Shown: positions 38,706-54,448 of the stretch, one piece after another
Position numbering within the stretch: the first letter of the stretch is position 1
How the letters are laid out: each line of letters begins with the position of its first letter
The notes under the pieces: generated by a model
What the model was told of the DNA's origin: nothing
Database searches by the model: none
The model's input: the letters and a program-made list of their open reading frames with translations, nothing else
Program-made: the position numbers and the translations under genes
Origin: Flagellimonas allohymeniacidonis
GTDB taxonomy: Bacteria; Bacteroidota; Bacteroidia; Flavobacteriales; Flavobacteriaceae
Length of the DNA stretch: 64,000 bases
Assembly: GCF_004296335.1 (NCBI RefSeq)
Contig: NZ_SGIU01000001.1
Span: forward strand, 721,290 to 785,289
Direction of reading: 5' to 3'

Positions 38706-39467
38706 TCAGTTCAGCCCCTCGAACCATCTTTTAAATTCGGCTACTTTCTCACGACTTACAATGACCTCTTTATCCATTTTGCACTTCAGAGTAAGTTTTA
38801 GTCTTCGATTTGAATACACCATAACATCGGTTATGGCGTTCAGATGTACCAAAAAACTTCGATTTACCCGAAAGAATTGCTTAGGATTTACCAACTCCTC
38901 CAGAGTTTCCAAAGTGTATTCAATCATATACCGTTTTCCATCTGCAGTAATCAAATAGGCGTCTCTTCCTTCTGCATAGAAGACATTTATGGATTCAGTT
39001 GAAATGGAATTCAGGTGGTTTCCCATTTGAACCAAGAAACGATCCTTATAGACTTTTTGCTCTATCTGATCTAACATGGAGGCCATATGTGTGGGACTGG
39101 AAAACTGTGTCTTAAGTAATTCCAGCTTTTGAAGGGCCTTGGTCAAATCAGTAAACTTGATGGGCTTGAGCAGATAATCAATGCTGTTGACCTTAAACGC
39201 ATCAATGGCAAATTCATCAAAGGCAGTTGTGAAAATTACCGGTTTTGTGAGGATAGTTCGAGAAAAGATTTCAAAGCTTAGACCATCTGAAAGCTGCACA
39301 TCCATAAAAAACAAATCCACTGAAGCCTGGTTTTCGGCGATCCAGGGAATGGATTTTTCCAAAGATGGAAGTATCGCAAGAATTTCAACGTTTTCACTAT
39401 GTTTTATGAGATAACGCTCCAATTTTTCCGCGGCAAGGGCTTCATCCTCGATAATAGCTACTCTCAT
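38706..39467 (-). CDS. LytTR-family response regulator (second system)
   Basis: Receiver domain with Asp56 (VDLFFMDVQLSDGLSFEIF) and acidic residues at 7-9; LytTR DNA-binding domain about residues 155-250 (YAEGRDAYLITADGKRYMI, FFRVNRSFLVHLNAI). It overlaps the degenerate kinase-like gene by 4 bp and lies at the end of a probable three- or four-gene operon. Confidence 0.92.
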   Translation of the reverse strand: MRVAIIEDEALAAEKLERYLIKHSENVEILAILPSLEKSIPWIAENQASVDLFFMDVQLSDGLSFEIFSRTILTKPVIFTTAFDEFAIDAFKVNSIDYLLKPIKFTDLTKALQKLELLKTQFSSPTHMASMLDQIEQKVYKDRFLVQMGNHLNSISTESINVFYAEGRDAYLITADGKRYMIEYTLETLEELVNPKQFFRVNRSFLVHLNAITDVMVYSNRRLKLTLKCKMDKEVIVSREKVAEFKRWFEGLN

Positions 39468-40483
39468 AGCATCTGAAGTTTAGGTATTTTAATGGTTTTG
39501 TCATGTGGGTTGTGTGCTACCTCCAATGGTGTGCCAGAATAGTATTGATAATTGTTCTCTAATTTATTTAAAGAATTGATATTTAAGGTTTTATTAAGTT
39601 TTTCCTCATGTTTATATTTAATTTCAATCGTATTGCCTGAATCAAGAATTTCTATAGCAAGTTCATTGGTTTTGGAAGGAATGGTCGAACGCATAATGAC
39701 TTCAATAATTTGCACCAGGGTTCCCGGAATAATCCACGTCTTCTCCTTAAAACTTTTAACTAGTTGGATTCTCCTATAGGGCAAATGTTCCTGAACGGAT
39801 AAAAATTCATCCAAAGCTTCCATTTCTTGATCAAGGGGAATTACCTCATTTTTTCTATTGGATAGCAAATGGCGATACATGGAAGCGAAACTGTCCGTAA
39901 CCTCCTCCGCTTTGTCCACATTGTTTTTCATAACCATGAGAATTGCTTCTAAGCTTTCGAACAATAGCAAAGGATTGATTTCTTGTTTAAACCGAGCAAA
40001 ATCCTCCTCCATTTTCAGTCTGGCCCACTCTTCCTTTTGTAATTTTTCCACATTTATCTTGTGCAAAAATTGATGGCTCACATACAACAGTACATATATC
40101 AAAGAAATCACTGAGAAAATACTATTGAAAATCAAGAGCTCAGTGAGATTAGGCTCATAATGCAGTATTTTAACGAAGTAGAGGTACATGGAACCACTGA
40201 CCAAAACAATGGTCGCCAAGAATGTCGAGACTACCTGCAAGACCAATCGCAACAAAAAGGATTTAGGCCGATTCAAATGTCGGAAAATCACAATCGACAA
40301 TCTGGCCAATTCCTGAATGAGGTACGCTAAAGCAATACAGACATACAATTCTTGCCCAAAGAAGTTTTCCCCCAACTCATTGATCGTATTGTTGATCAAC
40401 AATATGAGCAAATAAACCAAGGTGCCGCTGAACAAGGGACTCAGAAGTCTAAAAAGTGGATGGTGAATAAAGAGCCTTTTCAT
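39464..40483 (-). CDS. Degenerate LytS-type histidine-kinase-like protein
   Basis: The 339-residue protein has membrane helices and the coiled region of a LytS-type kinase, but the phosphoacceptor His is replaced: where the active paralogue has SPHFLFN, this one has NPLLLFE (Leu172). The ATPase motif EN-AxKH is also lost (EVIMRSTIPS around 261-270), and no C-terminal GxGL box is seen. It cannot be a normal kinase and is likely a pseudokinase that forms dimers with or regulates its intact neighbour. It overlaps both flanking genes by 4 bp. Confidence 0.82.
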   Translation of the reverse strand: MKRLFIHHPLFRLLSPLFSGTLVYLLILLINNTINELGENFFGQELYVCIALAYLIQELARLSIVIFRHLNRPKSFLLRLVLQVVSTFLATIVLVSGSMYLYFVKILHYEPNLTELLIFNSIFSVISLIYVLLYVSHQFLHKINVEKLQKEEWARLKMEEDFARFKQEINPLLLFESLEAILMVMKNNVDKAEEVTDSFASMYRHLLSNRKNEVIPLDQEMEALDEFLSVQEHLPYRRIQLVKSFKEKTWIIPGTLVQIIEVIMRSTIPSKTNELAIEILDSGNTIEIKYKHEEKLNKTLNINSLNKLENNYQYYSGTPLEVAHNPHDKTIKIPKLQML

Positions 40484-41517
40484 AGGAGCACTGGTAATTT
40501 TACAATGAAATTAGACTCATCGGCTATTTGTACTGTTTCGTTGGCCAATAGTTTGTAGCGAGATGTAATGTTGCCTAATCCTATATTGAGGGACTTGGTG
40601 TTTGGACGTGCCTTGGTTTTGTTATTGACGACCCAAATCGCTCCTTCCTGATGTTTTATTTGAATATTTAAGGGTGTATTTTCAGAAGTTACATTGTGCT
40701 TGATGGCGTTTTCTACCAACATCTGAAGCGTTAAGGGTGGAACCTTGCTTGTCATAAGCTTATTTGGAAGTTGGTTGGATAGAAAAATTTGCTCTTGAAA
40801 ACGTGTCTGCATTAAAAAGCAATATGACTGTACAAAATTCATTTCCTCCTCGACACTCACCAACTTGTCCTCATAGGATCTCAAGGTGTAACCATACGAT
40901 TTGGCCAAAGAGCGAATAAATGCTTCGGCTTTGGCAATGTCTTTCTGAAAAAGGGAGGAAAGGGTGTTTAAGCAGTTAAACAAAAAATGGGGGCTTAGCT
41001 GCGATTTCAAAGCCGCCAACTGCAGTTCTGTCTGCTTCCACTTAAGTTGTACTTCCATCACCTGCCCCTTGTCATACTGCTGGTAGGAGTAAAATGCAAA
41101 ATAGATGATGTTGTAAATAAGTACGACACAAAACAGTAAAATCACAATTTTAAGTTGCATACTGCCTTCCGGGTCAAAAAAGAAATTGTAGTTGGAATTA
41201 ACAAGTCCATAAATCTTTAATGCCATGTAAACCATAGACCATCCAACAACGGAATGGAGCACTATTCCCGCCAAGAGTCTTAAACCAGTTTGCCTTCTCC
41301 ACTTAATGTAGCGGTTCAAGAATTGATTTATAAAATGAAATGCATAGCTCACACCAATTCCCAAAAATCCGTTGAGCAGTATTTCTACGGAAAGAGGACT
41401 CCCACCAAGGCTATGGAATCCGTAGAACAATAGGCCTACAACAAAGCCCAAGGATATTAAGACAAGATGTTTTCTCATGGTTGGTCGGTCTATAAAAAAA
41501 CGTAGCATCTTATCCAT
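40480..41517 (-). CDS. LytS/YehU-type sensor histidine kinase (second system)
   Basis: The 345-residue protein has about four to five membrane helices and an intact LytS-type kinase domain: phosphoacceptor His177 in LSPHFLFNCLNTLSS and ATPase motif LVENAIKHN (Asn270), with GLGNITSRYKLL near the end. It is followed by a degenerate kinase and a LytTR response regulator, all overlapping by 4 bp. The upstream repeat-protein gene is 64 bp away on the same strand, so it may be in the same transcript. Confidence 0.9.
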   Translation of the reverse strand: MDKMLRFFIDRPTMRKHLVLISLGFVVGLLFYGFHSLGGSPLSVEILLNGFLGIGVSYAFHFINQFLNRYIKWRRQTGLRLLAGIVLHSVVGWSMVYMALKIYGLVNSNYNFFFDPEGSMQLKIVILLFCVVLIYNIIYFAFYSYQQYDKGQVMEVQLKWKQTELQLAALKSQLSPHFLFNCLNTLSSLFQKDIAKAEAFIRSLAKSYGYTLRSYEDKLVSVEEEMNFVQSYCFLMQTRFQEQIFLSNQLPNKLMTSKVPPLTLQMLVENAIKHNVTSENTPLNIQIKHQEGAIWVVNNKTKARPNTKSLNIGLGNITSRYKLLANETVQIADESNFIVKLPVLL

Positions 41518-41581: not shown

Positions 41582-43030
41582 TTACTGAACTGCGTTAAGA
41601 ACTCTTCTATAGTGGGAATCTGATGAAATAGAATTGCTGACGGTACGATACGCATCGCTCACTGCCTTACCATTGGATTTGACAGCGGGAGCAAAGCGCA
41701 AAAGGGATTCGGCCTTATGATAATCCGAATCAATATCCTCAATAGCTGCAATGAGCTTCACCAAATCTGATTCACCAAAATCATTTTTGGCAATTTCCTT
41801 AAAGACCTCCGATTTATGGCTATCTGAATTTATTCGCCCTAAAGTGACCACCAAATCATCAACATTCCCAGAGGAAAGCTTATGGCGATCCACCAGTTTT
41901 TTCAGAACGCTGGCTTGGTGACTGTCGGAGCCCATTTGTTCCACACACTTAAGAAGGTGGGATATGGTAGAGGCATCCATTTCCTTGTTCACAGCTCTTG
42001 AAAGTACTGCTCCCCTGTGATAGTCCGAGTCCATTCCATCCAGGGCATTTAAAAAGGTATGGAAACCGCTTGTAGATAGTTCATCAACATTTAATGCGGC
42101 TTTAAGCACCTCTGCCCTATGGTGATCTGAATCAATTCCTTTTGCAGTCACTGCAAGAACTTTGGTGTTTTCAGAAGATAATGGTCGGTTTCGTAAGGCG
42201 GTCAACAAAACACTTGCCTTATGGTGATCGGAATCAATATCCCTAGCGATTACCAACAATGTTTTAAGTTGAGTGCCCTTAATGTTCCCATCTTTGATGG
42301 ATTTTTTCAAAACCTCGGCCTTGTGATGGTCAGAATCTATCTCTGATGCTGCATAAATAAATGCTAAGGTGCTTCCCTCGTTTTCTAGAAATTTGGCAGT
42401 GTATCTTTTAAGAATATCGGCTCTGTGATGGTCTGAATCAATTTCATCTCCAACAGCATGGATCACCGATATCAAATCGGCATCTTTGAGGTCTTTTTGA
42501 AGCAGAAGTTTAATATAGCGCGCTTTGACGTGGTTGCTTTCCATGATATCAACCTCTTTCAACACACCATACGCTCCTCTTTTTTTGTAGATACGATTTA
42601 CGCGTTGCTCAGATCCCAAAGTAGTGGTGCGAACAACATCCAAAAGTATATCGGCCAACCAGGCTTTACCTTCTGGGTCAAAGCTCTTTTCCGAGCCCCC
42701 GACGTAGTATCTTTTTATAAGTTGGCCCGAATTATTGGGTTCGATAAAAATGCGTCTTCTGGAGCCAAAAGCTGATCGCTTTATTTCCATAAAGCCGCCC
42801 CGGGAGATGGCAACAATATCTGAATCATCATCAGAGAGCGTAATGTCGCCTCGATATTCCACATGAAAACTTTTACCAAACGGATTGCTTACTGAAACTG
42901 TGGTTTTTCCATTATCCTGCACATTGACCGAAGTACGTCGCTGGGCATGCAATGAACTTCCTGATATAAGCAGAAAAAAAAGGATGAGCTTAAGAAGTAG
43001 GGCCGCAAGAAATTTGGAAAGATGATTCAT
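41582..43030 (-). CDS. Secreted protein with nine ~34-residue SDxH repeats
   Basis: From ATG 43030 the product is 482 residues with a signal peptide (about 1-26). After a short beta-rich region with HVEYRGDITLSDDDSDIVAI it contains nine consecutive repeats of 33-35 residues, each with the core (I/M)xSD(H/S/Y)H(K/R)xxxL, for example IDSDHHKAEVL. An earlier degenerate unit (ESNHVKARYIKLLL) may be a tenth. Predicted helical repeat (solenoid) protein exported from the cytoplasm. I do not recognise a family. It lies upstream of the second LytTR system. Confidence 0.75.
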   Translation of the reverse strand: MNHLSKFLAALLLKLILFFLLISGSSLHAQRRTSVNVQDNGKTTVSVSNPFGKSFHVEYRGDITLSDDDSDIVAISRGGFMEIKRSAFGSRRRIFIEPNNSGQLIKRYYVGGSEKSFDPEGKAWLADILLDVVRTTTLGSEQRVNRIYKKRGAYGVLKEVDIMESNHVKARYIKLLLQKDLKDADLISVIHAVGDEIDSDHHRADILKRYTAKFLENEGSTLAFIYAASEIDSDHHKAEVLKKSIKDGNIKGTQLKTLLVIARDIDSDHHKASVLLTALRNRPLSSENTKVLAVTAKGIDSDHHRAEVLKAALNVDELSTSGFHTFLNALDGMDSDYHRGAVLSRAVNKEMDASTISHLLKCVEQMGSDSHQASVLKKLVDRHKLSSGNVDDLVVTLGRINSDSHKSEVFKEIAKNDFGESDLVKLIAAIEDIDSDYHKAESLLRFAPAVKSNGKAVSDAYRTVSNSISSDSHYRRVLNAVQ

Positions 43031-43041
43031 GATTGTTCGTT

Positions 43042-43091
43042 TTTTGATTGATGAATTTTGATTGATGAATTTTGATTTTGATTGATTGATG
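43042..43091. repeat. 14-bp tandem repeat upstream of the repeat-protein gene
   Basis: TTTTGATTGATGAA occurs at 43042-43055 and 43056-43069, then partial copies continue to about 43091. It lies 12 bp upstream of the start codon, probably in the leader of the repeat-protein gene. Confidence 0.75.
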
Positions 43092-43198
43092 GTGCAAAGA
43101 TGTGGAAGAAGCACGGCACCCTAAAATGAAATGTAGCGAAATGGCCCTTTTTTGTATTGAATTGTACATAGGGGAACATCATCGCCCTATTGGGGTGT

Positions 43199-44880: not shown

Positions 44881-45315
44881 CTACTCTTTATCAGCGTGAA
44901 ACAGGGCAGTATAAATTTTGCCGACTCCCCAATTTCCTAAAGGAAAATAAAGCGCAAAGAAAAGTGCCATGCCCAAACTGAAATTTCTAATGTTGAAAAA
45001 GCGGTCCAAGATGTTATCGGGATAGGCATATGAAGTTTGAAGTGCATAGCCACTAAATTCCAACAAGCCCATTGCAATTAATCCATAAGCATACTGCCTA
45101 TGGAAGGGCATTCCCCTTAACACCAATGAAATAGGTACCATGTAAAGAATATAACAAGTTATGACCTGCCACCAAAAGGTAAATCTGGCTATTTCCATTT
45201 GCCGTCCAAACCAGTTCATGCCCAATCCCCAGAGAAAGTAGACCAAGCAATAGGTCAACAAAAGTCTCTTGTCCACCGACACTTTCGATTTTACAAAATG
45301 GAAAAACTTTTTCAT
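44881..45315 (-). CDS. Four-helix membrane protein of unknown function
   Basis: A 144-residue protein with about four hydrophobic segments (LTYCLVYFLWGLGMNW, FWWQVITCYILYMVP, YGLIAMGLLEFSGYAL, LGMALFFALYFPLGNW). No family recognised. It lies 144 bp downstream of the acyl carrier protein on the same strand, so it might belong to the polyketide locus, but the gap makes this uncertain. Confidence 0.6.
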   Translation of the reverse strand: MKKFFHFVKSKVSVDKRLLLTYCLVYFLWGLGMNWFGRQMEIARFTFWWQVITCYILYMVPISLVLRGMPFHRQYAYGLIAMGLLEFSGYALQTSYAYPDNILDRFFNIRNFSLGMALFFALYFPLGNWGVGKIYTALFHADKE

Positions 45316-45459: not shown

Positions 45460-45714
45460 TCATTCTTTGTCGGCCAGTTTGGTTTCAATAATCTCCAAAG
45501 CATCATTGATGGTTTTCATGCCATCCATATCCTCATTTTCGAGTATAATATCGAATTCGTCCTCCACATCCAGCACGATATCCACCAAATTGGCGGAATT
45601 GATGTTAAGCTCCTGAATGAAATCGCTTTCTTTTTTGATTTCTTTGGGATCTACGTCTTCCGGTAAGTAGGTCTCAACAATGGTCTTAAGTTTTTGATAT
45701 TGTTCTTCTCGCAT
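45460..45714 (-). CDS. Acyl carrier protein of the type III PKS operon
   Basis: An 84-residue ACP with the typical acidic four-helix pattern. The phosphopantetheine site is Ser40 in LNINSANLVDIVLDVEDEFD: the usual DSL motif is replaced by NSA, but the modified Ser and the following helix-II pattern are intact. It would carry the growing acyl chain of the dedicated fatty-acid enzymes encoded just upstream. It starts 6 bp after the ketoacyl synthase gene. Confidence 0.88.
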   Translation of the reverse strand: MREEQYQKLKTIVETYLPEDVDPKEIKKESDFIQELNINSANLVDIVLDVEDEFDIILENEDMDGMKTINDALEIIETKLADKE

Positions 45715-45720
45715 TCTAGT

Positions 45721-47007
45721 TCAATTCTGTTTGCTTTCACTATACTTTTTAAAAATAGCGCAAGCATTTACATCCCCAAAACCAAAACTGGCCTTTGCAA
45801 TAACTTTTGGTGCAAAATCCATAGTTTTTTGAGGTATTCGGCTTGCATTCGCATATTTCAGGATTTCAGGATGCACATCTTCACAATTGACATTACCGAA
45901 AATCTTATTTTCAGAAAACTGAAGTATGGTTCCAACACTTTCAATGCTTCCAGCAGCCGCCAAACAATGGCCGATTGTACCTTTGAAGGAATTTATGTAT
46001 GGGAAATCCTTACCATGTCGATTTAGGGCAAGGCTCCAATTTCTGATTTCCAAGGAATCTTTTGTGGTCGCTGTAAGATGCCCATTAATAGCATCAATCT
46101 CGTTTGCGTGCACCCCAGAATCAGACAACGCATCTCTTATGCATTGCTGAACGCCTTCACTATTTGGAGCGGTCATACTACCTCCTAACCTTTGTCCTCC
46201 ACTGTTCACACAGCCCCCTAAAACTTCGGCATAAATCGTCGCGCCCCGCTCAAGTGCACTTTCCAAAGTCTCTAAGACAAGTGCCGCTGCGCCACTCCCA
46301 GGAACAAACCCAGAGGCAGTTGCGCTCATGGGCCTACTGGCTTTTTTGGGCTTTTCGTTATACTTTCTTGGTAAAATCCGCATGGCATCAAAGCCACCCC
46401 AAACATAAGGTCCGCTATCACTGCAACTCCCGACGAGCATGCGTTTCGCTTTACCGAATTTAATGCGATCATATCCCATTAAGAGGGCCTCAGTGCCAGT
46501 GGTACAGGCTGAGGAGTTAGTGGTCACCTGATTTCCGCAACCCAACATTCCTCCCAAATAGGCACTGATACCGCTGGCCATGGTCTGCATTACGGTCGTA
46601 CTCCCCAAACGTCGAACGTTACCGGCATCCACGTGATAAATAGCGTCTTTGAACTTGTCAACGCCTAAAATTCCAGTACCAAAAACAATCCCGGAATCCC
46701 AGTCGAGTGGGTTGTCATTATCAATTTCAAGCTTGGCATCCCTCCAGGCATCGACCCCGGCCATGACTCCATAAATAAGCCCAGAAGATTCCAATCCTTT
46801 CTGCTGCAGTTTTGTAAAGTAATTATTTAGGTCAATAGTTTCAATTCTCGGTTCTCCAGCTATTTGGCATGAAAAGTTTAGGTCTTTCAGTTTTTGCTGG
46901 AATCGAATTCCGCTTATACCCGATCTTAAGGCTGCTGCGAACTCTGGAAGCCCAACCCCATTTGGGGCGCATACCCCCATTCCGGTAACTACTACCCTAG
47001 TTCCCAT
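45721..47007 (-). CDS. Beta-ketoacyl-ACP synthase (KAS II/FabF-like)
   Basis: A 428-residue elongating ketoacyl synthase with the complete Cys-His-His triad: Cys168 in NSSACTTGTEA, His310 in INGHLTATTKDS, His347 in FKGTIGHCLAAAG. It condenses malonyl-ACP with the acyl chain. It overlaps the upstream dehydratase gene by 11 bp. Its place in the operon suggests synthesis of a specific acyl starter rather than housekeeping lipids, which is inferred. Confidence 0.92.
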   Translation of the reverse strand: MGTRVVVTGMGVCAPNGVGLPEFAAALRSGISGIRFQQKLKDLNFSCQIAGEPRIETIDLNNYFTKLQQKGLESSGLIYGVMAGVDAWRDAKLEIDNDNPLDWDSGIVFGTGILGVDKFKDAIYHVDAGNVRRLGSTTVMQTMASGISAYLGGMLGCGNQVTTNSSACTTGTEALLMGYDRIKFGKAKRMLVGSCSDSGPYVWGGFDAMRILPRKYNEKPKKASRPMSATASGFVPGSGAAALVLETLESALERGATIYAEVLGGCVNSGGQRLGGSMTAPNSEGVQQCIRDALSDSGVHANEIDAINGHLTATTKDSLEIRNWSLALNRHGKDFPYINSFKGTIGHCLAAAGSIESVGTILQFSENKIFGNVNCEDVHPEILKYANASRIPQKTMDFAPKVIAKASFGFGDVNACAIFKKYSESKQN

Positions 47008-47446
47008 CCTTTACAGTTTTAAACATGCCTGCCAAAACACCTTTGCATACTTGCTGTCCTTTCTGGTTCACCATTTGCACCTTGCATTTGAGTTTTCCGA
47101 ATCGGAAATACACTTTTTCAGAGTATACCGTAACTGTTTCCCCAGGGAAAACAGGTAAAACAAACTCCATTTCAGAACTAGAAAATGCAATCCTCGAAGG
47201 AAAATCATTTTTGGAATCCTTGAGCAAGTATATACCAAGACAGACCAGCCCTATCTGGGCACAACATTCAGTAAGCAGTACGCCGGGGGTCACTGGGAAG
47301 TCTTTAAAATGGCCTTGATAAAAGTCCAAACCCTCATTGAAAGTAAAGGTCCCTTCCACACGTTCTTCTGTAATATGTTGAAGTTCATCAACAAACCGAA
47401 AAGGTTTGTCATAAGGAAGTCTTGCCAATATTTCACTTTTCGTCAT
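46997..47446 (-). CDS. FabZ-like 3-hydroxyacyl-ACP dehydratase
   Basis: A 149-residue hotdog-fold protein. The FabZ-type catalytic pair is visible as His46 and Glu60 in YQGHFKDFPVTPGVLLTECC; Gly in the HFPG motif is replaced by Asp, a variation also seen in related dehydratases. It would dehydrate 3-hydroxyacyl-ACP during chain building. It starts 3 bp after the enoyl reductase gene and overlaps the ketoacyl synthase gene. Confidence 0.85.
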   Translation of the reverse strand: MTKSEILARLPYDKPFRFVDELQHITEERVEGTFTFNEGLDFYQGHFKDFPVTPGVLLTECCAQIGLVCLGIYLLKDSKNDFPSRIAFSSSEMEFVLPVFPGETVTVYSEKVYFRFGKLKCKVQMVNQKGQQVCKGVLAGMFKTVKDGN

Positions 47447-47449
47447 GGT

Positions 47450-48238
47450 TTATTGTATACTTTCACCTCCATCTACCTTAATGACTGTTCCGGTAATCCA
47501 TTTAGCCTCTTCCAAAGTTAGCAGGTATACAACATCCGCTACGTCCTCTGGTTTGGTAAGTCTGTTATTGGGATTTCGCTCCAAGGCCTTTTTCCCTAGA
47601 ATTTCACTATTGGGAATCATTCGAAAAGACTTTGTATCTGTTGTTCCTGCCTGTATACAGTTTGCTTTTACGCCTAAAGGGGCAAACTCCAGTGCAATGT
47701 TTCGAGTAATGGCTTCCAAAGTGGCTTTTGCAGCAGACACTGCGGCATAGCCTGGCCATGCTTTGGAACTGCCCTCACTAGTAAATGAAACTATTCTGGC
47801 ATCTTTGGCAAATAATCCTAGGTTGACCAACGACCTTGCCCAATCGTACAAGCTTGTGGCCATGGCATTAATGGTAAGTTGGAAATCTTCATTCACCAAC
47901 TGATTCGTTGAAGTCAACATCGTTTTTAGATTGCCTTTTGCAATACTGTGTACCAAAACATCGATTTTGTCTGGACCCAACAACTTTACTATTTCTTGCA
48001 GTACTTCCTCTGTTTTTTGCTTATTGGTAGCGTCAATGTTAAAGCTGTGGAGTTGATTTTCATCCAAAGTAATTTCCTGAAAATCCTTATTAATCTCTTC
48101 TAAGTCAATTTTTCTATCTCTGTGGATAATGATCAAATTGAATTGATGTCTTGCAAGTTTTTTTGCAGTTGCCAATCCCAGGCCACTACTTCCACCAAGA
48201 ATCAGCGCCCATTTGCCAGATGTACCCGTATTTACCAT
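47450..48238 (-). CDS. SDR reductase with enoyl-ACP-reductase (FabL/FabI-like) signature
   Basis: A 262-residue short-chain dehydrogenase with the Rossmann motif GGSSGLGLATA (15-25). The catalytic Tyr164 and Lys171 are seven positions apart (YAAVSAAK), the Y-x6-K spacing typical of enoyl-ACP reductases FabI/FabL rather than the Y-x3-K of ketoreductases. FabL-like activity is therefore favoured. No separate ketoreductase is encoded in the operon, so the housekeeping FabG may act here. It overlaps the PKS gene by 7 bp. Confidence 0.8.
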   Translation of the reverse strand: MVNTGTSGKWALILGGSSGLGLATAKKLARHQFNLIIIHRDRKIDLEEINKDFQEITLDENQLHSFNIDATNKQKTEEVLQEIVKLLGPDKIDVLVHSIAKGNLKTMLTSTNQLVNEDFQLTINAMATSLYDWARSLVNLGLFAKDARIVSFTSEGSSKAWPGYAAVSAAKATLEAITRNIALEFAPLGVKANCIQAGTTDTKSFRMIPNSEILGKKALERNPNNRLTKPEDVADVVYLLTLEEAKWITGTVIKVDGGESIQ

Positions 48239-49287
48239 TTCAGAAGTATCCTTTGTGCTGAAAACCCAGGCCCGAAGCTTAGTAAAAGTCCTTGCTTTCC
48301 CTCGGAATCATCAAGCATCATAAAACGTTCCAATACGTACAATACCGTGACACTGCTCATATTCCCAAATTTACGCAACACTTCTCGGGTATCATCGATG
48401 TTTTTGCCCAATTTCCCAAACAGTTCTTCTACCGTCTCCACTATTTTTTTGCCACCAGGATGAAAGATCAAGTAATCAACATCTTCAATACGCGTTTGAA
48501 AGCGTTCCAAGAAGGGATGTACAATTTTTGGGAAGTGATTCGCTATGACCTCAGGAACGGATGGGTCCAAAATCATTTTAAGACCAGTGTTGACCAAATC
48601 AAAGCCCATGAGATGAGTGGCATCCTTGAAATGATACATTTCCTCACCTACAATACTTGGACCTTGAGCACTAGGTTCAGAGGATAGAAGTGCGCATGCT
48701 GCACCATCTCCAAAAATTGCCGCGCTTACCATATTGGTCATAGAAAAATCATTTAGTTGAAAGGTTGCTGTAGGACTTTCCACGGCAACAACAGCAGCCC
48801 TTTTGTCGGGATTGGATCTCAAAAAATGCGCAGCATAAATCAATCCTGAAATCCCGGCCGCGCATCCCATTTCGGTGACAGGAAGGCGCACAACATCTTC
48901 CTTAAGACCAAGAGAATTGGCCAAATAAGCGTCTAGCGAAGGAATCATAATCCCTGTGCAGCTCACGGTGATGATGTAATCCAAGGAATCGGCTTTCCAG
49001 TTAGCAGAATCCAGCGCTTTTTGCAGCACCTGTTCCCCCAAAATCTTCACTTCACGGGCGTAAATGGCATTCTTTTCTTCAAAAGAAGTGGCCATGAAGA
49101 CCTCTTCAATGTCCATAATCCCATAGCGACGGTCCACGCCAGCCCCCTTAAATATCTTCTTGACCTTTCTCTGAAAGCGTTCCTCTTGACCAGAAAGCCA
49201 AACATCAATAAACGGAAGAATCTCCCTAGTTTCTCGGCAAAATTTGGGTAATTGCTTGGCTACTTGTACAATTCGTACTTCGCTCAT
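48232..49287 (-). CDS. Type III polyketide synthase (chalcone/stilbene synthase family)
   Basis: A 351-residue homodimeric-type III PKS with all catalytic residues: Cys142 (EMGCAAGISGLIY), His276 (LIFHPGGKK) and Asn309 (FGNMSS), and the C-terminal GFGPG-like loop SFGPGFSAQ. It extends a starter acyl unit with malonyl-CoA and cyclises the product to resorcinols, pyrones or related rings. With a dedicated ACP and fatty-acid enzymes in the operon, a long-chain acyl starter is probable. It overlaps the methyltransferase by 4 bp and the reductase by 7 bp. Confidence 0.95.
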   Translation of the reverse strand: MSEVRIVQVAKQLPKFCRETREILPFIDVWLSGQEERFQRKVKKIFKGAGVDRRYGIMDIEEVFMATSFEEKNAIYAREVKILGEQVLQKALDSANWKADSLDYIITVSCTGIMIPSLDAYLANSLGLKEDVVRLPVTEMGCAAGISGLIYAAHFLRSNPDKRAAVVAVESPTATFQLNDFSMTNMVSAAIFGDGAACALLSSEPSAQGPSIVGEEMYHFKDATHLMGFDLVNTGLKMILDPSVPEVIANHFPKIVHPFLERFQTRIEDVDYLIFHPGGKKIVETVEELFGKLGKNIDDTREVLRKFGNMSSVTVLYVLERFMMLDDSEGKQGLLLSFGPGFSAQRILLKW

Positions 49288-50000
49288 ATGTTATTTTCTT
49301 GTTTGATTTGCATCACCCATACGTATCGAAAAGCCCACCTCCAACGAATGGTATGTATAACACTTGGTATTTTATTCGAAAGGTGTATCAGCTCATTTTT
49401 AGTAAAGCCTTTGCTTATGGAAACCAATCCATCGTACTTGGCCACCTCAGTTCTGATAAAGAAAAAACTGAATACCTTGAATAAGTAATATGCCCACTTG
49501 CTACGTTGTAAATCGTTGATGACCACCCCCACCTTGGCAAGACTTACAAATTGGTTCAAGAAGGTTTCAAGGCGTTCTTCCTCAAAATGGTGCATCGTTA
49601 GGGTGTTGATGATAATATCACATTCAAAACCGGAATCTGCTTTAAGGATATCCATTTTCTTATAGGTGATATTGAGATATTCTTCACTTTGTTTCCTTGC
49701 AATTTCAAGAACATCCTCTCTTAAATCGATACCCGTCATCTGATGTTCTATCTTTCTTTCAGTCAGGAAATTGGATAATTTTCGGAGCATTGTACCATCC
49801 CCTGAACCCATGTCCAAAATCGTATACGATTTTTGTTTTGTCCTTTTTATGAGCTTCCACACTTCCTGTATGGTAATTTTATCTCCTCCAAGCAGTTTAT
49901 TACACTTGTTTATGTCTTCGTACGCTTCTTGGAGCATCTCGAACGCCATATTGGGATCATCCATTTTTTCCGCTACCCTACTTCGAAGTGAAAAATCCAT
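49284..50000 (-). CDS. Class I SAM-dependent methyltransferase of the PKS operon
   Basis: A 238-residue protein with class I motif I at about residues 61-70 (ILDMGSGDGT), followed by MTGIDLREDVLEIARKQ and CDIIINTLTMHHFEEE, typical of UbiE/methyltransferase-25-like proteins. Likely O- or C-methylates the polyketide product; the site is unknown. Its ATG overlaps the stop of the FAD oxidoreductase in a TAATG and its stop overlaps the start of the PKS gene. Confidence 0.85.
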   Translation of the reverse strand: MDFSLRSRVAEKMDDPNMAFEMLQEAYEDINKCNKLLGGDKITIQEVWKLIKRTKQKSYTILDMGSGDGTMLRKLSNFLTERKIEHQMTGIDLREDVLEIARKQSEEYLNITYKKMDILKADSGFECDIIINTLTMHHFEEERLETFLNQFVSLAKVGVVINDLQRSKWAYYLFKVFSFFFIRTEVAKYDGLVSISKGFTKNELIHLSNKIPSVIHTIRWRWAFRYVWVMQIKQENNI

Positions 50001-51145
50001 TAGACTGTAATTGGTTTACCGTGCGTACTTGCGATCACCCCACGGAGCAATCTTTTGGAATTGGCCAAAGTGGAAATTGCCATATCAAACCATTCGGTAT
50101 GAATCATGAGCGCCTGTAGCCTTCTTCCCATCCACATTCTTTTACTGAAGTTCTTTTTCCAAGCTCGTTGGTAATTCAATTCCATTATATTTCGATGATA
50201 TTCTTTGTTTTCCAAAAACAAATCAATCTGCTCAGCTGCAATTTTAGCACTATGGATGGCCATCGCCATTCCATTTCCACATAACGGATGAATCAAACCT
50301 GCTGTATCTCCACACATGAGCATATGGTTTTCTACCGCCTTTTTCCTATCAAAAGAAATTTGGGCGATACTCAAGGGTTTTTCAAACTTAAGCTTGGCTG
50401 TCATCAAGAATTCCTTTAGCAATGGATTCTCGCTTATTACATTTTTATGGAATTCTTCAACGGTGCCTTCTTTTTTAAAGCTTTCATATTGTACCAGATA
50501 ACAAAAATTAATGCAGCCATCCTCGGTTTTTGAAAGCCCCCCATAACCTCCTGGAAAATTATGAAGTCCAACAAGATGCTCAGGGTGTGGGTAAGCTGTA
50601 TAATGACCTTTTATTCCCAGCCAGGGAGATTTGTTATTAATAAATGACCTATTCAACTTCTTGTCCAAATTAGACCGCTTACCAAAAGCCCCAATTGCTA
50701 CTTTGCACTCAATTTTTCTGTCCTCGGATGTAGTAAGTTGAAAGACGTCACCATCAAAAGTCACATCTGACACGGTATCAAAAAGAAATTGAACCCCTTT
50801 CTCAAAAGCCTTTTCGTAAAGAAGGTTATCGAAAGTGTATCGGCTAATGCCAAAACCCCCGGAGGGTAAATCAACACTAACGGATTTACCTTTTTGGGTG
50901 GAAAGCTGCAAGGTGGTTATTTGAGGCAAATTAAACCGGTCGAGGTCTATGCCCAAATGACCTAAATAGGGCTTGACCTCATTGGAAACATACTCACCAC
51001 AAACCTTATGCTTGGGATATTTGTTTTTTTCGATTATCAGTACCTCCTTGCCTCTATCCACCAAATCCAAGGCTGCCGTTAAACCGGCAAGGCCTCCCCC
51101 AATAATAGCAATCTCAACACTGTTCACAAATTGAAGATACTGCAT
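50000..51145 (-). CDS. FAD-dependent oxidoreductase (geranylgeranyl-reductase/monooxygenase-like)
   Basis: From ATG 51145 the product has 381 residues. A Rossmann FAD motif is at the N-terminus (IAIIGGGLAGLTAALDL), followed by KHKVCGEYVSNE and a second FAD motif MCGDTAGLIHPLCGNG, as in geranylgeranyl-reductase-like oxidoreductases and related flavin monooxygenases. A GTG at 51127, six codons on, would give the more canonical N-terminus NSVEIAIIGGG and is a serious alternative. First gene of the PKS operon; could hydroxylate or oxidise the aromatic ring, or reduce double bonds. Confidence 0.82.
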   Translation of the reverse strand: MQYLQFVNSVEIAIIGGGLAGLTAALDLVDRGKEVLIIEKNKYPKHKVCGEYVSNEVKPYLGHLGIDLDRFNLPQITTLQLSTQKGKSVSVDLPSGGFGISRYTFDNLLYEKAFEKGVQFLFDTVSDVTFDGDVFQLTTSEDRKIECKVAIGAFGKRSNLDKKLNRSFINNKSPWLGIKGHYTAYPHPEHLVGLHNFPGGYGGLSKTEDGCINFCYLVQYESFKKEGTVEEFHKNVISENPLLKEFLMTAKLKFEKPLSIAQISFDRKKAVENHMLMCGDTAGLIHPLCGNGMAMAIHSAKIAAEQIDLFLENKEYHRNIMELNYQRAWKKNFSKRMWMGRRLQALMIHTEWFDMAISTLANSKRLLRGVIASTHGKPITV

Positions 51146-51151
51146 AAAAAC

Positions 51152-51182
51152 AAAAATCCCGACCAGATCGGTCGGGATTTTA
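51152..51182 (-). terminator. Strong terminator hairpin of the OmpA-family gene, directly before the PKS operon
   Basis: A perfect 12-bp stem, AAAATCCCGACC (51153-51164) and GGTCGGGATTTT (51170-51181), with a 5-base loop. On the minus strand it is followed by T, G and five T residues that run directly into the ATG at 51145. It lies about 20 bp behind the stop of the OmpA-family gene. Confidence 0.8.
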
Positions 51183-51201: not shown

Positions 51202-51894
51202 TTATCCTTTGGTTTTTTGATAAGCTTCTTCTTTGAGTTCCTCGCTTGCCATAATAGCAAGTTCCACCCTTCGGTTCTTGGCTTTTCCTTCTGAGGTTTC
51301 GTTCGTAGCCTTGGGCTGGCTCTCGCCGTACCATTTGGTTGTAAACCTACCATTGGAAATTCCTTTGGAAACCAAATATTTGGTAACTGACTCAGCTCGT
51401 TGCTGCGATAGTTTCCAATTGTAATCCTCAGGACCGGCACTGTCGGTATGGCCTTCCACCAAAATAATGGATTGTGGATACTCTTGGAAAATTCCAGCCA
51501 ACTTATCCAATGTATTGGCTGACGTTCCTTTTACATCTGACTTGTTGGTGTCGAAATACACCCCTGCTTCTTCATTGAAGGTAACATTAATTCCTTCTCC
51601 AACCCTTTTTACCTCAGCTCCTGGAATTTCTTCTTCTATTCGTTCAGCCTGACGGTCCATACGGTTTCCTATGTATCCTCCAGCTGCACCGCCTACCACA
51701 GCACCGATGATGGCGCCAAGTGCTGTATTTCCCTTTCCTACATTATTTCCAATGACACCGCCAATTACGGCACCGCCAGCAGCACCAATAGCTGCTCCTT
51801 TTTGGGTGTTATTGGCATTTTTTACTGCATTACAGCTTACAATTAGACTTAGCATTAAAATGGCTGCTGTGCTTTTTATGATTGCTCTTTTCAT
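51202..51894 (-). CDS. OmpA-family lipoprotein with glycine-zipper domain
   Basis: Lipobox LIVSC (Cys about 21), then a glycine-zipper region (about 30-80; repeated GAAGGAVIGGVIG and GAVVGGAAGGYIG) and an OmpA/MotB peptidoglycan-binding domain (about 110-225; VYFDTNKSDVKG, VEGHTDSAG, NWKLSQQRAESV, NRRVEL). Peptidoglycan-linked envelope stability protein. It follows the lipocalin-like gene by 4 bp, so the two form an operon. Confidence 0.92.
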   Translation of the reverse strand: MKRAIIKSTAAILMLSLIVSCNAVKNANNTQKGAAIGAAGGAVIGGVIGNNVGKGNTALGAIIGAVVGGAAGGYIGNRMDRQAERIEEEIPGAEVKRVGEGINVTFNEEAGVYFDTNKSDVKGTSANTLDKLAGIFQEYPQSIILVEGHTDSAGPEDYNWKLSQQRAESVTKYLVSKGISNGRFTTKWYGESQPKATNETSEGKAKNRRVELAIMASEELKEEAYQKTKG

Positions 51895-51898
51895 GTGC

Positions 51899-52384
51899 TT
51901 ACTTTTTAGTGAATTGATAAACGATGGTTACGGGTTGTCCCTCAACAGAAACATTAGATCTAAGGGTCATGTTTTGCTCATTGATGCTGGATATGTTCAA
52001 ACGATATCCAAGACCTCCCGAGATGTCCTTTCGATTTTCATCAATAAACTTGAACTGCAACTGACTGCTGTAGTTCTGGGCAGGTTCAACAACGGACCAA
52101 CGGAAAAAACGATCCCCGCCTTGACAAAGGCTGCTTTGCGAGATGGTATATCTTCCGGTACTGTTGTTGTCACGAAAGAACCAATCGCTTCCTTCGAAGC
52201 AAATGTCTTCTGCATCGCCGAAAATGGTCGATTTAAAATTTCCAGTATTGTTTTCATAAGATATGTTGTCCAAGGTCCAAGAACCACTAAAAAGGTTTCG
52301 TTGGGTTCGGGCACTTTTGGAAACGGAGCAGGAAGAAAACAAGATTCCTGCCAACATCAGTAAAAAGAATGTTTGCTTTACCAT
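51899..52384 (-). CDS. Lipocalin-like lipoprotein
   Basis: 161 residues with lipobox LFSSC (Cys about 19). The mature domain begins with SGSWTLDNISY and contains strand patterns such as GRYTISQSSLCQGGDRFFRWSV that fit a lipocalin-type beta barrel. Often paired with an OmpA-family gene in flavobacteria, as here. Ligand unknown. Confidence 0.75.
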   Translation of the reverse strand: MVKQTFFLLMLAGILFSSCSVSKSARTQRNLFSGSWTLDNISYENNTGNFKSTIFGDAEDICFEGSDWFFRDNNSTGRYTISQSSLCQGGDRFFRWSVVEPAQNYSSQLQFKFIDENRKDISGGLGYRLNISSINEQNMTLRSNVSVEGQPVTIVYQFTKK

Positions 52385-52471
52385 AAGAAATTGGAGTTTA
52401 TTGGTTTTATATACGATTGAGACACCTTTTTGAATGTTTGGTCATGTTAAAAAATTGTTAAGACATATTTT

Positions 52472-54448
52472 CTAGTACTTCACTAGATCGAGCAAGACCC
52501 TTTCGAACCTTTTCTTAGGAAGAAAATTCTCTTCCAGTTTTTTTGCAAATGGAACTGGGGTTTCCAAGCTGCCTACCCGCCTTACCGGTGCATCTAAATG
52601 CTCAAAGCAATTCTCCATTACCATCGCGGATATATCACTGGCCACACTTCCAAACAGTGTGTCTTCCACCAAGATTATTAATTTACCTGTTTTTCGTACC
52701 GAGTTGAAAATCGTTTCGCTATCGAGAGGTTGAAGTGAACGCAAATCTATGAGATCTGCTTTGATTTCTGAATGTAAATCCAAGATTTCCATTGCCCAGT
52801 GCACCCCCGCACCAAAGGAAACAATGGAAATGTCATTTCCTTCCCTTAATAAACTGGCTTCTCCCAAGGGAATTGTAAAATATTCCTCGGAAACCTCACC
52901 ATACACACTCCTATATAGTGCTTTGTGCTCAAAAAACATGACCGGGTTCGGGTCATTGATGGACGCAGCCAAAAGCCCTTTTGCGTCTTGTGGAAATGCA
53001 GGATAGACTACTTTAAGACCTGGAGTTTTGGTGAACCAGGCCTCATTGGTTTGGGAATGAAATGGTCCTGCGCCTACCCCACCGCCACAGGGCATCCGTA
53101 TGACCACATCCGCTTTTTCTCCCCATCGATAATGCACTTTGGCCAAATAATTCACAATAGGGTTGAATCCTGAACTTACGAAGTCAGCAAACTGCATTTC
53201 TACAATGGCTTTCATTCCATTTATCGATAGGCCCATCGCCGCAGATACAATGGCAGATTCACAAATTGGGGTATTTCGGACCCTACTTTTTCCAAACTTG
53301 GATGTAAAATCTTCCGTTATTTTGAAAACACCCCCGTACTCGGCAATATCTTGACCCATAATGATCAATTCATTGTGCCGGTACATGGATTGTTCCAAAC
53401 CTTCAGAAATGGCATCCACCAGCCGTATCCTTTTCTTTTTGGGCTTTGGGGCTATATGTTCAGGATTGTATGTCTTATATACCCCTTGGATTTCTTTATT
53501 TGTATTTGGGGAAACCTCAGGCTCATCGAAGGCTTTTTTAAGGTTCTCTTCTATTTCTTGGGAAATTCTTTGCCTCAGTGCTTTGATTTTTTCCTCTGTC
53601 AACAATTTCTTATCCAACAGAAAAGTCTCAAAGTTAGAAATAGGGTCTTTCTTCGCCCATTTTTTCATTAATTTCTCAGGCACATATTTAGTGCCGCTAG
53701 CTTCCTCGTGCCCACGCATCCGGAAAGTCTTAAATTCCAGCAAAACTGGTCGTGGCCTTTTTCGTAAGGCCTGGCAAAGCTCACTGACTTTCGTATATAC
53801 CTCGAGGATATTGTTGCCATCGATTACTCTTGACTCCATGCCATAGCCCTTGGCCCTATCGGCCAAATTTTTGCAATTGTATTGTTCATTGGTTGGTGTA
53901 GAAAGGCCATATCCATTGTTTTCAATACAAAAAAGCACGGGCAAATTCCAGACAGAAGCCACGTTCAAGGCTTCATGAAAATCTCCTTCGCTTGTTGCTC
54001 CTTCACCTGTAAAGACCGCAGTTACCCGCTTTTTTCTTCGGAGCAAATCCGCCAAGGCTATTCCATCAGCCACACCAAGCTGTGGCCCAAGATGGGAAAT
54101 CATGCCCACAATCTTGTGCTCTTGTGAACCAAAATGAAAACTACGGTCCCTACCCTGGGTAAAACCACTGGCTTTCCCCTGCCATTGGGCAAAAAGGCGG
54201 CTTAACGGTATGTTTCTGGTGGTAAATACTCCGAGGTTACGGTGCATGGGCAATATATATTCCTCCGATTTCAAGGATTTGGCCACCCCTACCGAAATGG
54301 CTTCTTGGCCCATACCACTGAACCATTTTGAAATTTTTCCCTGTCTGAGTAAAATCAGCATTTTTTCCTCAATCATTCGGGGCTTCAGCATGCCCTCATA
54401 TAAATCGACAAGTAGCTCTTTGTCAAGTTGACCAATGTGGTATCTCAT
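52472..54448 (-). CDS. Fused 2-oxoacid dehydrogenase E1 alpha/beta subunit
   Basis: The 658-residue protein joins both E1 parts in one chain. The alpha part (about 1-330) holds the thiamine-diphosphate motif GEGATSEGDFHEA (148-160) with NN at 177-178 and the phosphorylation-loop-like RMRGHEEASGTKYVP; the beta part (from about 340) holds IMGQDIAEYGGVFKIT and VEDTLFGSVASDISAMVMEN. Substrates could be pyruvate or branched-chain 2-oxoacids (E1 of a multienzyme complex). No E2 or E3 gene lies in the window. Confidence 0.9.
   Translation of the reverse strand: MRYHIGQLDKELLVDLYEGMLKPRMIEEKMLILLRQGKISKWFSGMGQEAISVGVAKSLKSEEYILPMHRNLGVFTTRNIPLSRLFAQWQGKASGFTQGRDRSFHFGSQEHKIVGMISHLGPQLGVADGIALADLLRRKKRVTAVFTGEGATSEGDFHEALNVASVWNLPVLFCIENNGYGLSTPTNEQYNCKNLADRAKGYGMESRVIDGNNILEVYTKVSELCQALRKRPRPVLLEFKTFRMRGHEEASGTKYVPEKLMKKWAKKDPISNFETFLLDKKLLTEEKIKALRQRISQEIEENLKKAFDEPEVSPNTNKEIQGVYKTYNPEHIAPKPKKKRIRLVDAISEGLEQSMYRHNELIIMGQDIAEYGGVFKITEDFTSKFGKSRVRNTPICESAIVSAAMGLSINGMKAIVEMQFADFVSSGFNPIVNYLAKVHYRWGEKADVVIRMPCGGGVGAGPFHSQTNEAWFTKTPGLKVVYPAFPQDAKGLLAASINDPNPVMFFEHKALYRSVYGEVSEEYFTIPLGEASLLREGNDISIVSFGAGVHWAMEILDLHSEIKADLIDLRSLQPLDSETIFNSVRKTGKLIILVEDTLFGSVASDISAMVMENCFEHLDAPVRRVGSLETPVPFAKKLEENFLPKKRFERVLLDLVKY

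Follow-up and report, generated by a model that had tools for sequence, protein, structure and literature searches.

What does a type III polyketide synthase (PKS) make when its gene lies in one operon with tailoring genes and fatty-acid-type genes, and where does its acyl chain come from? These questions are raised by a 64,000-nucleotide stretch of the genome of Flagellimonas allohymeniacidonis (contig NZ_SGIU01000001.1, positions 721,290 to 785,289 of the forward strand), referred to below as the window. Seven open reading frames (ORFs), overlapping or almost touching, were found on its minus strand at 45460-51145. They encode, in this order, a flavin adenine dinucleotide (FAD)-dependent oxidoreductase, an S-adenosylmethionine (SAM) methyltransferase (MT), a type III PKS, a short-chain dehydrogenase/reductase (SDR) assigned as enoyl-acyl carrier protein reductase (ER), a dehydratase (DH), a ketoacyl synthase (KS) and an acyl carrier protein (ACP). 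We assign a probability of about 0.6 to the reading that this seven-gene operon of marine flavobacteria directs phenolic-lipid biosynthesis fed by its own acyl-ACP cassette.

An operon with its own acyl-ACP genes

The seven genes and the minus-strand order claimed in a preliminary description of the locus were borne out, and Pfam and NCBIfam agreed with the assignments (Table 1). The junctions that it listed, -1, -4, -7, +3, -11 and +6 bp, matched the ORF ends exactly. Its proposals that the genes form a single operon and that a dedicated type II acyl module is joined to a type III PKS were also upheld, the former by the packing of the genes and by the one order found in relatives. Spacing in relatives was not constant to the base; neighbouring genes there can be tens of bases apart and occasionally hundreds.

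Conservation was examined in 80 named loci, the best 80 of 416 encoding stretches in named genomes, with PKS identities of 71-81%. Their record titles give Flavobacteriaceae genera, for example Flagellimonas, Maribacter, Arenibacter, Salegentibacter and Christiangramia, or uncultured relatives. The order FAD-MT-PKS-(ER)-DH-KS-ACP was kept in 80 of 80 as far as the contigs extend. A tblastn search found all seven genes in 63 of these loci and only the SDR missing in 12; one further locus had an SDR match only elsewhere, three on short contigs lacked the ACP and one lacked the FAD gene. The same order was seen in all 20 additional close loci, 10 of them without the SDR. The seven-gene arrangement is not a product of chance. 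The catalytic residues listed in Table 1 were invariant, a term that refers to the aligned rows; the family profiles drew on 33 to 80 rows that had passed a score filter.

Of 395 Bacteroidota genomes searched in full, 33 carried the PKS at an identity of at least 66%, among them 30 of the 41 genomes of the window's family. The KS, at 58% identity or more, was present in exactly the same 33 genomes, and 11 of the 41 same-family genomes lacked PKS and KS alike. A check set beforehand, that the genes should co-occur in Bacteroidota, was thus passed by the identical distribution of PKS and KS and by the constant gene order. A class-level KS search, which matched 32 of 395 genomes, gave 19 new loci, and 13 of these had FAD-MT-PKS-DH-KS in order, with the SDR in 12 of the 13 and the ACP directly next to the KS in 8. 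The idea that the block is limited to one family was rejected, since class-level loci of f3, f10, f56, f59 and f80 carry FAD-MT-PKS-(SDR)-DH-KS.

Each of the four acyl genes encodes a protein with a single domain (84-428 aa) and not a type I megaenzyme. Tyr-x6-Lys is the motif of FabI/FabL-type enoyl-ACP reductases, and the earlier assignment of the SDR as an enoyl reductase stood: this motif was found in 68 of 68 SDR rows, and FabL was the best solved match. The FabL equivalog was also the best-scoring NCBIfam model for the SDR, though at 149 bits against a cut-off of 328. Assignment as a ketoreductase was rejected because the motif is Y-x6-K and not YxxxK. In 37 of 100 loci a 4'-phosphopantetheinyl transferase (PPTase) gene sits at the downstream end of the operon (median overlap 3 bases; PF01648 in the one copy scanned), which links the ACP with the pathway. 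One ACPS-family match was found in the window's genome, outside the operon region.

The cassette was also followed outside this operon. Its KS forms a family of its own: searches at E<=1e-90 and at E<=1e-58 matched an identical set of 38 of 395 genomes, and the FabF-like match to it in the window's own genome was at 34% (7e-49). In the five genomes past the 33, the KS (46-54% identity) lay away from the operon PKS clade, and other, lower-identity PKS matches were found elsewhere in these genomes. At locus L177, SDR-DH-KS-ACP-PPTase adjoined genes for DarB (615 bits, cut-off 550) and DarH (443 bits, cut-off 300). Locus L179 had GNAT-SDR-DH-KS-ACP, the GNAT-like protein being long, with a GT2 glycosyltransferase, and L180 and L181 had this layout minus the SDR (L181 by eye); the L179-L181 cassettes possibly belong to another lipid pathway. 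The PKS was absent from 6 of the 19 class-level KS loci, among them L187, in which a ketoacyl synthase III (KS III) gene lies between KS and DH. The contigs of L192 and L202 are short, that of L192 beginning inside the KS. Because it recurs without this PKS in varied loci, the KS-DH-ER-ACP cassette appears to be a portable source of acyl-ACP, with this operon as one of its users. An acyl module and a type III PKS are joined here, as had been described, but the cassette is not specific to type III PKSs.

Some further features of these loci were recorded. A DarA-like gene at L177 was named by eye, with no family match, and L178 resembled L177 in layout, also by eye. An SPT/BioF-like gene lies about 4 kb from the L179 cassette. 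In L189 and L192, both without the PKS, KS-ACP-PPTase is followed downstream by PhyH-type genes.

Table 1. Features of the operon and its immediate surroundings (window coordinates; fractions are aligned rows that carry the catalytic residues)
Feature	Position	Strand	Identified by	Residues
Intrinsic terminator-like hairpin, 13 pairs, between ompA-like gene and operon	51153..51181	-	stem computed	
FAD-dependent oxidoreductase, probable aromatic hydroxylase	50000..51145 (start perhaps GTG 51127)	-	PF01494 and others	
Class I SAM methyltransferase (MT)	49284..50000	-	PF13649	
Type III polyketide synthase (PKS)	48232..49287	-	PF00195, PF02797	C142/H276/N309 (81/81); F229 where related clades have Trp
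FabL-like enoyl-ACP reductase (SDR, ER)	47450..48238	-	NCBIfam, best solved match, alignment	Y164-x6-K171 (68/68)
FabZ-like dehydratase (DH)	46997..47446	-	PF07977, NCBIfam, alignment	H46, E60 (81/81)
FabF-like ketoacyl synthase (KS)	45721..47007	-	PF00109, PF02801, NCBIfam, alignment	C168, H310, H347 (78/78)
Acyl carrier protein (ACP)	45460..45714	-	PF00550, NCBIfam, alignment	S40 (78/78)
Small hydrophobic protein, downstream of operon	44881..45315	-	no family match (Pfam, NCBIfam)	

The PKS clade and the tailoring enzymes

The PKS belongs to the type III enzymes, with both Pfam families of the chalcone/stilbene synthase fold above cut-off and the Cys-His-Asn triad in place. Lower-identity PKS matches were present in 140 genomes (173 minus the 33), and 40 of these distant loci were taken for reading. 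They comprised 17 PKS-MT-FAD triads, 16 loci with a gene like isoprenylcysteine carboxyl methyltransferase (ICMT) beside the PKS, and 7 with neither; ICMT was confirmed by Pfam in the two ICMT-paired loci scanned. A profile search found no KS, DH or ACP near the PKS in the 40 loci. In a tree of 59 rows, with 26 operon and 17 triad PKSs as well as the ICMT-paired ones, and with the 7 'neither' loci, HidC and PkqA left out, the PKSs formed three groups according to partner set, namely operon, triad and ICMT (supports 100/99, 100/99 and 98/94). The operon PKSs were thus a clade separate from that of the Bacteroidota triads. A wider tree of 61 rows, which takes in all 40 distant loci including the 7 with neither partner, had a 100/97 split with the operon PKSs on the ICMT side and the triads and five unpaired PKSs on the other.

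The column of window residue F229 was compared among these groups. Phe was present in 101 of 101 close operon PKSs, the window counted, and Trp in every triad PKS (17 of 17) and every ICMT-paired one (16 of 16); eight more divergent operon PKSs had Phe (7) or Tyr (1). Solved enzymes have Trp (Pks11 and Steely1), Leu (CylI) or Tyr (THNS) in this column. Trp281 of ArsB has been linked to resorcinol versus pyrone formation and is kept in mycobacterial and Streptomyces enzymes, according to PMC9927152. F229 probably occupies the ArsB Trp281 column, the ring-closure site, an equation made through the Pks11 alignment and the statement on mycobacterial enzymes in that paper. A model of the PKS (predicted local distance difference test, pLDDT, 84), folded from an alignment of the window and 16 of 18 relatives, was closest, among the matches listed, to Pks11 (Z 41.2, root-mean-square deviation (rmsd) 2.6, 343 residues) and CylI (Z 39.9). 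The window's genome also holds a second match to the PKS C-terminal family, at 22 bits, below the cut-off.

The FAD protein matched the geranylgeranyl-reductase superfamily model of NCBIfam below its cut-off. Its structural model (pLDDT 90), folded from an alignment of the window and 27 of 64 diverse relatives, matched the flavin halogenases PltA and Bmp2 (Z 36, rmsd 3.0, over 363 and 361 residues) and p-hydroxybenzoate hydroxylases (Z 32-33). FAD-dependent halogenases have the motif WxWxIP. This pattern was absent from the window's FAD protein, and a hydroxylase is therefore favoured. The MT was class I (PF13649), and Pfam gave no ICMT match for it. One operon copy, at locus L199, has two adjacent methyltransferase genes, which would fit a doubly methylated product.

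The history of the tailoring genes was then compared with that of the PKS. The window's FAD protein was 40-42% identical to seven of eight class-level Bacteroidota triad FADs and 35% identical to the eighth, while identity to the triads was 27-31% for the PKS and 29-34% for the MT, which does not discriminate. In the FAD tree, a branch with support 97/91 held the operon FADs, five of the eight class-level triad FADs and four other triad FADs, and left out the other three class-level ones. In the MT tree, the operon label needs three changes. The simplest reading of these comparisons would be that PKS and tailoring genes have recombined. The narrower statement that a PKS was swapped into a triad was softened, because the PKS and FAD trees are unrooted, with some FADs on very long branches, because of the three changes in the MT tree, and because MT identities are not above those of the PKS.

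Proposed pathway, alternatives and known systems

The observed parts of the pathway proposed here are the genes, their order and intact active sites, the co-inheritance of PKS and KS, the upstream terminator and the partner-specific PKS clade. KS, DH and ER, together with ketoreductase and malonyl transferase from primary metabolism, would extend or finish an acyl chain on the operon ACP, and an acyl- or beta-ketoacyl-ACP would be loaded onto Cys142 of the PKS. The PKS would carry out extension with malonyl-CoA and closure to an alkylresorcinol, the FAD enzyme would hydroxylate the ring, and the MT would methylate it to give a methylated hydroquinone or benzoquinone. We infer the loading from ACP, the resorcinol rather than pyrone ring, and the order and site of tailoring, and the product may have a membrane or redox role. 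The phenolic-lipid reading is favoured by the L177 cassette, which is related to that of the operon and lies beside the dialkylresorcinol enzymes DarB and DarH, by the nearness of the PKS model to Pks11 and to the resorcinol-forming CylI, by the FAD model, whose nearest listed matches were flavin halogenases and p-hydroxybenzoate hydroxylases, and by the alkylresorcinols, hierridins and polyketide quinones that triads make elsewhere.

Several observations weigh on the other side. The FAD model is also near the geranylgeranyl-reductase-like 3oz2 (Z 32.7), so that the fold alone leaves the reaction unfixed. Of 100 close loci, 23 lack the ER, and a quick PKS tree gives at least 9 changes for it; because of this absence it is considered dispensable, and a housekeeping enzyme presumably covers its role. 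Genes for a ketoreductase, a malonyl transferase and a KS III are absent from the operon; lacking the first two, it falls short of a full fatty-acid synthase. The KS is not directly followed by an ACP in 5 of the 13 class-level operons (three have a weak match further on and two have none). A dedicated acyl supply is not generally required, since 17 of the 40 distant loci are triads without KS, DH and ACP. Finally, the ring type is not predictable by the Trp281 rule, because the operon PKSs carry Phe at that site. Two Salinimicrobium loci (L075, 11973-12755; L081, 11953-12735) have a second SDR, with YxxxK, between ER and DH; judged by its motif, it could be the missing ketoreductase.

The Phe at the probable ring-closure site speaks for an alternative that we consider unlikely, in which the PKS makes alkyl-alpha-pyrones instead of resorcinols and the MT and FAD enzyme decorate the pyrone. 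This alternative also agrees with the description of the nearest solved relative, Pks11, as an alkylpyrone synthase and with the position of the PKS on the ICMT-paired side of the wider tree. However, the FAD and MT partners are of the kind found with resorcinol-forming triads, and CylI, with Leu at that site, was solved with a resorcinol product. The surroundings of the cassette elsewhere, beside DarB, whose products have two chains, and beside acyltransferase-like genes, would suit a different role, in which it makes not the PKS starter but a second acyl chain that is attached to the phenol afterwards, either as an ester or as a ring substituent. But the operon has no acyltransferase or ligase, and all four cassette genes follow the PKS gene closely, which makes this quite improbable. 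An unsaturated, polyene-like chain, with a pigment as the product, would suit a KS-DH-ACP set without a ketoreductase, which resembles polyene cassettes, and the loci without ER. We regard it as very improbable, because the SDR with an enoyl-reductase motif is kept in 77 of 100 close loci and the flexirubin and aryl-polyene families of NCBIfam all fell below cut-off.

The phenolic-lipid reading was set against known systems. The hidABC genes for hierridin B in cyanobacteria (PMC8086630), an MT-oxidoreductase-PKS operon of Planctomycetota for alkylresorcinols (PMC10896814) and the actinobacterial pkqABC genes for polyketide quinones (PMC9927152) are comparable triads, and HidC has already been proposed to accept an acyl-ACP starter (PMC8086630). 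The operon shares with the hierridin-like and PkQ triads the adjacent type III PKS, SAM MT and FAD oxidoreductase, and with the class-level Bacteroidota triads the FAD likeness of 40-42% described above. It differs in its PKS clade, when set against the Bacteroidota triad PKSs, in Phe for Trp and in the order FAD-MT-PKS, and it adds KS-DH-ER-ACP and sometimes a PPTase. The suggestion that tailoring and acyl supply occur together here was accordingly narrowed: both are present, but a PKS with an ordinary SAM MT and an FAD enzyme is itself already a known triad.

The arsABCD genes of Azotobacter vinelandii share with the window a type III PKS and fatty-acid synthesis genes in one operon, whereas the latter encode type I megasynthases there and discrete type II enzymes here; to our knowledge, arsABCD has no MT/FAD pair. 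ArsB and ArsC are thought to use ACP-bound chains in vivo. Dialkylresorcinol and flexirubin clusters (darA, darB, flx) contain relatives of SDR-DH-KS-ACP-PPTase, with the KS 52-54% identical, but their ring is formed by the KS III-like DarB and not by a type III PKS. The window's PKS scored 19.8 bits on the StlD/DarB model (cut-off 450), and Pfam and NCBIfam found no other KS III-like gene among the seven. Pairs of a type III PKS and an ICMT, of the type known in Bacillus as BpsA-BpsB, lie on the same side of the 100/97 split, but have an ICMT-type MT in place of the class I enzyme and lack the FAD enzyme and the cassette. The methyltransferase of Streptomyces srsABC is likewise of the ICMT type, unlike the window's MT. 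CylI of the cylindrocyclophane pathway (Z 40) is another type III PKS that closes a resorcinol on a chain from other enzymes; there the chain comes from a ligase, a halogenase and type I PKSs, in contrast to the KS-DH-ER-ACP cassette here.

Type III PKS clusters of the window's bacterial family have already been catalogued. Genome surveys have counted them (PMC10734526, PMC7440613, PMC9323603, PMC9859067); one survey of 2,680 genomes of this bacterial family put them at 10.74% of gene clusters (PMC10734526), and the cluster of another was without similarity to characterised MIBiG clusters (PMC9859067). The available portions of these four surveys describe neither the product nor the cassette, and literature searches of titles and abstract beginnings found no paper on this operon or its product. 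What is unusual here is a separate PKS clade with a triad-like FAD enzyme, Phe in place of Trp, and a KS-DH-ER-ACP cassette that recurs without this PKS. If the phenolic-lipid reading is true, a phenolic or quinone lipid of a common marine bacterial group has so far escaped recognition, and the operon offers an example from nature of a type III PKS that draws on a discrete type II acyl cassette. The Phe-for-Trp clade is a direct test case for what sets the ring type, and with the cassette beside DarB, chain delivery to ring-forming enzymes is testable in two systems. A broader proposal, rather doubtful at present, is that a Bacteroidota cassette (KS-DH-ER-ACP, often with a PPTase) serves at least three lipid systems and in one of them gives ACP-bound chains to the Phe-for-Trp PKS clade, yielding a membrane quinone or hydroquinone that might serve marine flavobacteria as a second redox carrier alongside menaquinone.

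Operon boundaries and flanking genes

The FAD gene is probably the first gene of the unit, because the terminator-like hairpin precedes it. A loose script rule, run with no shuffled control, gave a hairpin followed by a T-rich tail in the corresponding gap of 69 of 69 relatives, although its sequence drifts; these 69 are the loci among the 80 named ones that have a readable gap of less than 400 bases. The mechanical FAD ORF extends to 51334. Because the terminator stem lies at 51181-51153, translation probably starts at ATG 51145 or, more likely, at the in-frame GTG 51127. ATG 51145 sits within the T run of the terminator, and residues 1-6 were the sole stretch of the FAD model with pLDDT below 50. 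A consensus promoter scan gave 13 matches, against 15.1 expected from shuffles.

Upstream of the operon, on the minus strand at 51202-54448, are an ompA-like, a lipoprotein-like and a 658-aa dehydrogenase-like gene. These were in the same place in 74-77 of 100 close loci, which indicates that the operon is often at a fixed chromosomal site. Downstream lies the gene for the small hydrophobic protein, which is found close to the operon in 36 of 100 close loci; its membership of the operon in the window, across a 144-bp gap, is uncertain. Further downstream, also on the minus strand, 41582-43114 encodes a 510-aa protein that has a motif like IDSDHHKAEVL about every 35 residues and is without a Pfam match. 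The 5' end of this ORF contains a 14-bp tandem repeat of 2.6 perfect copies (43042-43077). Two adjoining membrane-protein genes follow at 39464-41517 on the same strand, encoding proteins of 345 aa (histidine kinase, PF06580) and 339 aa.

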